Assembly (NCBI GenBank): GCA_017852335.1
Contig: JAFMLG010000004.1
Location: 1 to 52,391, forward strand
DNA length: 52,391 nt
Direction: 5' to 3'
DNA from: Actinomycetota bacterium
GTDB lineage: Bacteria > Actinomycetota > Nitriliruptoria > Nitriliruptorales > Nitriliruptoraceae
In this document: in pieces, positions 1 to 3,183 of the stretch
How the letters are laid out: each line of letters starts with the position of its first letter
Position numbering within the stretch: position 1 is the stretch's first letter
Notes under the pieces: model-generated
Told to the model about the DNA's origin: nothing
Databases searched by the model: none
Seen by the model: the letters and a program-made list of their open reading frames with translations, nothing else
Translations under genes and position numbers: made by a program

Positions 1-1066
1 CGGCGGTCGGCACGCCCGGCGCCGTCGGCGCGTCCGGCGCGTCCGCGGCGGCCACCGCCGGCGCGGGCCGTTCGATCGGGGACGTCCGCGCCCCGGGCCG
101 GTCGAGGTCGAGCGAGGGCAGCGGCGCCGTCGCCCGGGGCCGCGGCGCCGGCGGGTCGCCCCCCGGTCGGACCCGGCGGTAGGTCGCGCCGTCGACGAGC
201 GCGACCTGCGGGGCGCAGCCGGCGACGCGGAGCGCGTCGAGCGAGGCCATCAGCTCGACCCGGGACGTGAGGTTCGCCTCGGCGACGAGCACCACCTGGT
301 CGAGGACCCGCGCGGCGTTCACGACGGCCCGGGTGCTGACCTGGGGCAGCGCGACGAGCAGCACGCCGACGTCCTCGGGCAGCAGCGTCGGGAGGGAGAC
401 GACCGCGCCGAGCGCCGCGACCGGGTCGCCGCCGGGACCGATCGTCGCGACGGGGGCGCCGTCGGCGTACGTGACGACGTCGGCCAGCGGCAGGCGGTCG
501 CGGACCACCTCGAGGACGCCCGGTCCGTCCGGCGCGGCGGTGAGGTCGGCGAGGAGCACCGTCGTCCCGGCCCGACCCAGCGCCGCGGCCAGCGCCCGGG
601 TCCAGGCGACGGCGGCGAGCGGCTCGGCCCCCACGGGGGCGAGTCCGAGGTGCATCGCGGCCCCGTCCGGCCGCGCCTCGAGGACGGCGGCCGCGAGCTC
701 GTCGGCGTCCGCGTCCGTGACGCCGACGGGGAGCAGCGCGACGAGGTCCCCGCCGCCGCTGCGGACGTGGCGCGGCCCGCGGACGCGGACGTCCAGCGCG
801 TCGAGGGCGGCCGCGACGGCGACGCCGGCGGCCAGGGCGGTGGCGCCGACGACGAGCCCGACGGCGGCCGACGCCGGGACGACGGTCGGGGCGAGGGACG
901 CGATCAGCAGGACGAGGGCGGCGAGGACGCCGGCGGCCCAGAGCGCGACGGGACCGCGGCGGTCCAGCACGTCGAGGAGCTCGATCGCCCACAGCGGGGG
1001 CCGGCGGCGGGCGCCGGTGGCGTCCGTCGCGTCCGTCGTCGTCCCCGTCGTCGTCGCGGCGCCCAT
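1..1066 (-). CDS. Membrane-anchored BY-kinase-like protein lacking a P-loop (3' end cut by window)
   Basis: Translated by eye from the ATG at 1064-1066; about 355 codons are present and the frame stays open to the window edge. Residues about 45-62 and 66-88 are two hydrophobic segments. Then comes an alpha/beta domain that follows the order of ParA/MinD-like bacterial tyrosine kinases: a strand ending in APVGAEPL where a Walker A should be, a helix, the strand TVLLADL, and later the strand VGVLLVALPQV followed by VVLVAEANLT. The usual GKS/GKT of Walker A and the Walker B aspartates are absent, so it probably cannot bind or hydrolyse ATP normally. The tail from about residue 300 is Pro/Ala-rich. 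A role in cell-surface polysaccharide length control is only an inference from the architecture. No Shine-Dalgarno sequence precedes the ATG; see the -10 element at 1075. Confidence 0.6.
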   Translation of the reverse strand, partial: MGAATTTGTTTDATDATGARRRPPLWAIELLDVLDRRGPVALWAAGVLAALVLLIASLAPTVVPASAAVGLVVGATALAAGVAVAAALDALDVRVRGPRHVRSGGGDLVALLPVGVTDADADELAAAVLEARPDGAAMHLGLAPVGAEPLAAVAWTRALAAALGRAGTTVLLADLTAAPDGPGVLEVVRDRLPLADVVTYADGAPVATIGPGGDPVAALGAVVSLPTLLPEDVGVLLVALPQVSTRAVVNAARVLDQVVLVAEANLTSRVELMASLDALRVAGCAPQVALVDGATYRRVRPGGDPPAPRPRATAPLPSLDLDRPGARTSPIERPAPAVAAADAPDAPTAPGVPTA

Positions 1067-1074
1067 CGTCGGCG

Positions 1075-1080
1075 AGGCTA
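1075..1080 (-). promoter_or_regulatory. -10 element placing transcription start at the ATG (leaderless mRNA)
   Basis: The minus strand reads TAGCCT, matching TANNNT, with 8 nt between it and the ATG at 1064-1066. Transcription would therefore start on or within a base or two of the start codon, which fits the missing ribosome binding site. I see no convincing -35. Confidence 0.4.
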
Positions 1081-1127
1081 GCGGTGGGGGTCGGGACGGC
1101 CGCGGAGCGCCGGACCGGCCCCGGACG

Positions 1128-1181: not shown

Positions 1182-3183
<2,002 letters not shown>

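Follow-up and report, generated by a model that had tools for sequence, protein, structure and literature searches.

The first gene of the 52,391-nucleotide stretch of DNA analysed here (hereafter the window) very probably encodes a dead BY-kinase, that is, a protein whose sequence is related to the polysaccharide tyrosine kinases of the Wzc/CpsD type and in which the nucleotide-binding motifs have degenerated. The family to which it belongs is apparently an order-specific variant of the BY pseudokinases, an already known kind of protein. The gene lies on the minus strand (positions 2–1066), starting from an ATG at 1066 and running to the window edge with no stop codon, so that the N-terminal 355 amino acids of the product are available. 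As the window edge coincides with base 1 of contig C33 of the host genome (G000; 1.7 Mb, 97% complete), the gene has been cut by the assembly. Among the named records retrieved, the nearest was an uncultured Nitriliruptoraceae MAG with 64% identity in the best segment, which suggests a lineage in or close to the Nitriliruptoraceae. Genes located upstream in the window are housekeeping ones, the nearest being groEL (1182–2813, minus strand; named by eye from the sequence and considered as context only). The intergenic region between groEL and the pseudokinase gene contains a perfect GC-rich inverted repeat with 13-base arms and an 8-base loop (positions 1128–1161), which is a possible terminator of groESL; no run of T follows the repeat.

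Hydropathy analysis predicts two membrane helices close to the N-terminus of the window protein, spanning residues 40–58 (893–949, minus strand) and 67–85 (812–868, minus strand) and separated by 8 residues. The second helix aligns with the second transmembrane helix (TM2) of active BY-kinases. It is followed by the juxtamembrane motif RGPRHV (residues 96–101; 764–781, minus strand), in which R96, G97, R99, H100 and V101 are invariant in all 28 family members and which aligns with the stretch after TM2 of the active enzymes. The cytoplasmic domain comes next, and the available part of the protein ends with the beginning of a proline-rich low-complexity tail (2–184, minus strand), recognized from the translation of the open reading frame and from the tails of the homologues.

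The window protein did not produce any match at cut-off in searches against Pfam and NCBIfam. Among the 28 family members the lowest E-values were 0.0012 for Pfam, to an unrelated transporter family, and 0.0024 for NCBIfam, to the tyrosine autokinase model TIGR03018. The latter model weakly matched nine of the 28 members, and the chain-length determinant model TIGR03007 matched seven, also weakly. For profile–profile comparison with hhalign, a profile was built from the aligned core of the 28 family sequences (A3) and another from a domain-only alignment (A4), and both were compared with active BY-kinases from the relatives. The active set comprised 13 of the 20 loci matched by TIGR01007, picked by a P-loop pattern; the other seven (L057, L059, L064, L068, L069, L072 and L073) were set aside, although L059, L068 and L069 are also P-loop carriers that the selection pattern missed. 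The A3 profile matched the 13 active BY-kinases of the class with a probability of 93.5% (P = 2.3e-7) over 233 columns, which span TM2, the juxtamembrane stretch and the kinase domain. Within the juxtamembrane stretch, D..D..VRGPRHV of the family is aligned to D..D..IR...D of the active enzymes. The A4 profile obtained a score of 50.5 against the same set, while 30 column shuffles reached at most 17.4. Control clusters (UDP-glucose dehydrogenase [UGD], TsaD, GroEL, SpoIID-like and acetyltransferase-like) gave probabilities of at most 1.8%, and the reversed-alignment control of at most 0.4%. The N-terminal part alone matched the N-terminal helix region of active Wzc-type BY-kinases with a probability of 54.9% (P = 1.2e-4), which is only suggestive of homology in this region. 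When the domain profile was searched against all PDB sequences, the BY-kinase BceF ranked first (E = 5.2e-5), followed by IMP dehydrogenase, FleN, Etk, VpsO and MinD at E-values of 0.015–0.11 (Etk, 0.026; VpsO, 0.1). The relationship to polysaccharide tyrosine kinases proposed in the initial annotation thus holds, as do the two membrane segments that it had described.

The ParA-like fold predicted for the domain is also that of proteins of the CpaE/TadZ/MinD type, and some members of that group likewise have degenerate P-loops. It could be argued that the window protein acts in positioning, as ParA/MinD/CpaE proteins do, and would mark the pole or the septum for envelope growth, outside polysaccharide synthesis. 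The appearance of FleN and MinD in the PDB profile search (E = 0.016–0.24) and the weak matches of MinD models to two or three of the 28 members are in line with such a possibility. However, a CpaE/ParA-like set (11 of 20 loci, among them a BY-kinase-like protein and an unrelated ATPase) was matched with a probability of only 4.8% by A3 and 7.5% by A4, against 93.5% and 91.1%, respectively, for the BY-kinases, and the alignment with the latter takes in TM2 and the juxtamembrane stretch. We therefore disfavour CpaE/MinD ancestry and consider a positioning factor unlikely. An AlphaFold2 model was also built, from two sequences only (the window protein and L031), and reached a pLDDT of 47 and a pTM of 0.54. 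Foldseek searches of the PDB with this model placed UMP kinases first, with no BY-kinase on top and no match at E ≤ 0.001; a model of such low confidence speaks neither for the BY-kinase fold nor for a UMP-kinase fold.

The dead-kinase reading is carried by the loss of catalytic motifs throughout the family. Profile alignment and motif counts place the Walker A motif at residues 143–150 (617–640, minus strand), which in the window protein read APVGAEPL, and the Walker B motif at residues 236–241 (344–361, minus strand), which read LLVALP; the initial annotation had reported both the degenerate Walker A sequence and the loss of the Walker B aspartates. The signature GK[S/T] was found in none of the 28 family cores. 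The columns corresponding to the P-loop contain no lysine in 27 of the 28 members, and the 355-residue window protein has no lysine at all. The position of the Walker B aspartate is occupied by alanine in 21 members and by serine in the remaining seven, with no acidic residue in any. The sole exception among the P-loop columns is L045 (L045:9909-10733, genome G027), which reads GDGKR, apparently a remnant of the BY-kinase P-loop; the presence of such a remnant at the aligned place lends support to the alignment.

Two acidic residues have nevertheless been retained, and might be taken to mean that nucleotide is still bound and hydrolysed via an unusual site: D174, the remaining first aspartate of Walker A' (545–547, minus strand), and D232 are both invariant in 28 of 28 members, and L045 keeps its GDGKR. 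Against this, the lysine of the P-loop and the acid of Walker B are missing as described above, and the loop after D174 lacks, in the profile alignment, about 10 residues relative to active BY-kinases. Residual nucleotide binding and hydrolysis thus appear very improbable, and the protein is best regarded as a dead member of the BY-kinases.

Catalytic motifs are not the only elements missing. In 10 of the 13 active relatives, those in which both helices were detected, the two membrane helices are spaced by 165–258 residues, in contrast to at most 16 residues in 24 of the 28 members of the dead family (in three of the other four the helices were probably merged by the hydropathy method, and one is truncated). 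The Wzz-type ectodomain, which measures about 200 residues in Wzc-type proteins, is accordingly missing between the helices of the window protein. Several active relatives carry YYYSYYY-like runs behind the kinase domain. The tails of 27 homologues contain zero to three tyrosines per tail of 42–509 residues (five of these tails being cut at the 3' end). In the 22 relatives with the 3' end present, the tails measure 129–509 residues. With the ectodomain, the catalytic motifs and the tyrosine cluster all gone, the protein resembles, at the sequence level, a Wzc emptied of its outer domain and of catalysis. Compared with PCP-2a proteins of the Wzc type (TM1, Wzz ectodomain, TM2 and BY-kinase), it shares a colinear TM2, juxtamembrane stretch and kinase domain as well as a weakly matching N-terminal helix region, but has an ectodomain of about 8 residues, a dead kinase and no tyrosine cluster. 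Single-chain PCP-2 proteins with a BY pseudokinase, such as SMc01795, are described as keeping the transmembrane/periplasmic part (PMC12004946); the window protein is likewise a pseudokinase fused to a membrane part but is devoid of the periplasmic part, a distinction drawn here from the description of these proteins.

In order to establish the distribution of the family, 101 genomes, including that of the host, were searched at the protein level. Matches at E ≤ 0.01 were obtained in 34 genomes; 28 of them were strong (E ≤ 1e-25), contained no internal stops and came from the same family or order. Within the class, 28 of 66 genomes matched: 27 of 35 in family f1, the single genome of f2 and none of the 30 in f3–f5. 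Four further f1 genomes (G007, G023, G024 and G031) possess the tail end only, directly before the lipoprotein gene discussed below and on short stretches or contig ends. In a sample of the phylum, 11 of 296 genomes matched, all from f1 and f2. The family is therefore apparently confined to one order within the genomes searched, f2 being represented by a single genome. Assembly breaks are frequent inside or beside the low-complexity tail, as at the starts of C33 and C9 in the host genome and in G005, G006, G007, G009, G021, G023, G024 and G031, and the presence of the gene is for this reason undercounted in draft genomes.

The core of the protein is under purifying selection in the relatives. 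Ratios of dN/dS for the core, calculated by the Nei–Gojobori method, were 0.07–0.12 in five close pairs of relatives and 0.14–0.34 in five other pairs; the comparison of the window with L032 gave 0.545. The ratios are probably inflated, as extreme GC content would lower dS. In view of the values of 0.07–0.34 in ten of the eleven pairs, together with the absence of internal stops, we reject a decaying pseudogene.

The lost 3' end of the gene could be traced through synteny. In a sister genome a lipoprotein gene lies downstream of the homologue, and its counterpart is located near the beginning of contig C9 in the host genome. This contig opens with the last 49 codons of a pseudokinase gene and its stop codon (L078:1-150), and the encoded end, which finishes in EEEDLLRTTVQLSAFEEELDLRDDRD, is of the type seen in the family. 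Synteny with L032 and L033 leads us to infer that C33 and C9 adjoin; no overlap was found between the two contig ends. The 49-codon end contains no tyrosine. A P-loop in the missing C-terminus, which the initial annotation had named as evidence that would speak against its reading, was not found: GK[S/T] is absent both from the C9 end and from 27 homologous open reading frames, 20 of which are complete at both ends. The lipoprotein frame on C9 starts from a GTG at L078:143 and overlaps the end of the pseudokinase gene. It is followed by a gene for UGD, a gene for a DUF2142 protein on the opposite strand, genes for an ABC-2 permease and its ATPase, and a glycosyltransferase gene; further on, past a stretch of about 2 kb, there are genes for a Bac_transf enzyme, another glycosyltransferase and a second UDP-sugar dehydrogenase. 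The initial annotation had pointed to the genes beyond the left edge as a place where glycosyltransferases or an active paralogue could be sought. The former are present, together with UGD and an exporter; the latter was not detected, as no BY-kinase scoring above the family cut-off was found in the same genome.

The extreme C-terminus of the family carries a short motif of the LRTTAQLA type, which is readily recognized by eye in 17 of the 23 C-terminal ends, 13 of them also caught by a pattern search. The second threonine of the motif is preceded by acidic residues and followed by a hydrophobic residue at +3, and a loosely similar pattern has been reported for sites whose phosphorylation decreased after depletion of PknA (PMC7164672). 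In the host genome, a single Pkinase-domain match and three FHA matches were obtained. The protein might consequently be a phospho-threonine adaptor, in which Ser/Thr kinases phosphorylate the end motif, FHA proteins dock onto it and envelope growth is thereby tied to kinase signalling. However, the similarity of the motif is loose and would equally suit an amphipathic docking helix, and the motif is, by eye, strongly altered in four of the 23 ends and absent in two, so that we regard such an adaptor as improbable.

The lipoprotein gene is a nearly constant companion of the pseudokinase gene. It is located directly 3' of the latter in 21 of the 22 loci that reach past the stop codon (19 from the neighbourhood count, and those of G033 and G004 by position), the exception being G035, and it also follows the gene in the host genome, on C9. 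The lipobox cysteine is invariant in 19 of 19 lipoproteins (alignment A6). The lipoprotein was detected in 29 of the 66 genomes of the class, all belonging to f1, and 25 genomes have both genes. Three genomes have the pseudokinase core only; in two of these (G009 and G021) the sequence stops at a contig edge, whereas G035 seems to be a true exception. A search of solved structures with the lipoprotein profile returned a single match at E = 0.24; of two members compared with Pfam, one gave a match at E = 0.2 and the other nothing. Genome G018 contains a second pseudokinase–lipoprotein pair (L128, G018:C154, 1078–3421), so that both genes were apparently duplicated or acquired together. Given this second copy and the near-constant association, the two genes constitute a two-gene module. 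Neither the loss of the Wzz-type ectodomain nor the lipoprotein partner and the conservation of this arrangement among the relatives had been noticed in the initial annotation.

Genes further downstream are less constant. Among the 15 loci whose downstream sequence extends for at least 4.6 kb, 10 encode UGD there and the other five (L036, L046, L048, L050 and L056) lack it nearby; the UGD cluster was defined by blast, and the Pfam name was obtained for L032 and L078 only. As five of the 15 longer loci are without UGD and the upstream genes are housekeeping ones, the link to polysaccharides depends on the gene neighbourhood of only some family members. In several genera with a more distant UGD or none (L046, L048, L050, L039 and L036), the pair is followed by large proteins that group into a single blast cluster; the one in L050 has, by eye, a SpoIID-type and S-layer-homology look. 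A HEAT-repeat protein is encoded just 3' in two divergent members (L054:11267-13249, Pfam HEAT_2; L052:11142-13121, assigned by clustering).

The region upstream of the gene also displays features common to the family. In the window, a putative −10 box, TAGCCT (1075–1080, minus strand), ends 8 nt before the ATG, and no Shine–Dalgarno (SD)-like sequence precedes the start, precisely as had been stated in the initial annotation. The position of the box is conserved in the homologues: a TANNNT hexamer 6–10 nt before the start was present in 23 of 24 upstream regions, the window included, but in only seven of 218 other starts, and in 15 regions the spacing was 9 nt. SD-like tetramers occurred in none of the 24 regions against 93 of the 218 other starts. 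Four loci were left out of the comparison, L036 and L055 having no 5' end and L052 and L056 no assignable start. These counts are to be read with regard to the way they were obtained, since the starts were chosen once the upstream sequences had been inspected (for L038, L039, L044, L047 and L018, an upstream ATG was taken from several candidates), many of the 218 background starts are wrong because they were called mechanically, and the counts are not independent because the homologues are related. A predicted leaderless-type promoter is thus conserved across the family. That bacteria, Mycobacterium tuberculosis among them, have leaderless genes is well known (PMC3160421, PMC3898074), and their occurrence here is therefore a confirmation and not a surprise. 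An additional element precedes the −10 box, 20–39 nt upstream of it (1100–1119, minus strand). Its family pattern is GGnnGGnnnnnCCTCCnnGG, which may be written as GGnnGG-N5-CCTCCnnGG; the window reads GCTCCGCGG in the 3' part of the element, and the T at −26 from the −10 box is invariant in 23 of 23 upstream elements. The element may be the site of a regulator.

The closest functional precedent is provided by EcpK (MXAN_7447) of Myxococcus xanthus, which is described as lacking Walker A, A' and B and the tyrosine-rich tail; it binds the co-polymerase EpsV, and a scaffold role has been proposed for it (PMC12004946). According to the same source, EcpK and HfsB are stand-alone BY pseudokinases of Wzx/Wzy pathways in the Gram-negative bacteria Myxococcus and Caulobacter and act on separate PCP-2 proteins, EpsV and HfsA, respectively (PMC12004946). 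The window protein shares with them a BY-kinase-like domain devoid of catalytic motifs and tyrosines as well as polysaccharide genes nearby, but differs in having two membrane helices of its own, a long tail and a lipoprotein partner. It might be supposed that it operates in the same manner, associating with a Wzz-type co-polymerase made as a separate protein and, with no phosphorylation involved, driving the assembly cycles of the latter. Besides the same motif loss, the polysaccharide neighbourhood and the precedent itself, this possibility is favoured by the presence of Wzz in some of the relatives: of 22 f1 genomes covered by the search, eight gave matches at E ≤ 0.001, with scores under the family cut-off in three of these. 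However, no Wzz (PCP-2) match was obtained in any of the four genomes of the genus (G000–G003), although one of these is 78% complete and a divergent Wzz could escape such a search. No BY-kinase was found above cut-off in the same four genomes, TIGR01007 matches reaching at most 42 bits versus a cut-off of 108, and the neighbouring exporter in the host genome is of the ABC type. With neither a Wzz nor a BY-kinase above cut-off in the genus, the protein probably does not work exactly like EcpK, and an EcpK/HfsB-like mode of action is, in our opinion, rather improbable. The literature searched on BY-kinases and pseudokinases, on actinobacterial co-polymerases and on Nitriliruptor polysaccharide (the listed papers on its exopolysaccharide being covered by title) yielded no report of the protein.

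We consider it somewhat more probable than its negation that this BY pseudokinase is a membrane-anchored, non-enzymatic scaffold of a surface-polysaccharide, or otherwise envelope, pathway. The initial annotation had likewise suggested a catalytically dead scaffold; the loss of catalytic motifs extends to the entire family, while the scaffold half of that proposal is an inference. For a role specifically in polysaccharide biogenesis, to which the gene neighbourhood and the EcpK precedent point, we would put the chances at about even. Both helices, the stretch that follows them and the ParA-like domain on the cytoplasmic side would have been retained from a Wzc/CpsD-type ancestor; the extracytoplasmic Wzz domain, the tyrosine cluster and the motifs for nucleotide binding would have disappeared, and an extended tail of low complexity would have been acquired in their place. 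UGD, glycosyltransferases and the exporter ATPase could then be held at the membrane by the dead domain together with this tail, whose short end motif would serve as a docking or phosphorylation site, with the co-encoded lipoprotein forming the outer part of the same device. Such a scaffold would gather enzymes of envelope polysaccharide synthesis independently of ATP. Wzc phosphorylates the UDP-glucose dehydrogenase of Escherichia coli. Tyrosine phosphorylation of the E. coli enzyme is the subject of a published study (PMC2516531), and UGD is, by analogy, a plausible client of the window protein. More tentatively, it is conceivable that a hollowed-out Wzc and its dedicated lipoprotein form an order-wide envelope module, a membrane scaffold that is independent of phosphorylation or controlled by Ser/Thr kinases and that, even in bacteria with no detected Wzz, would serve an ABC-exporter-type polysaccharide pathway.

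According to recent descriptions, BY pseudokinases are scaffolds that work on a partner of the Wzz type. The domain reported here is conserved in the majority of the genomes sampled from one actinobacterial family, is associated with a single lipoprotein and persists in a small genome (1.7 Mb) that yielded neither Wzz nor an active BY-kinase. If confirmed, this would give the BY-kinase fold a structural function in the envelope for which kinase activity and a co-polymerase are both dispensable, and a two-gene module would be available for testing it.
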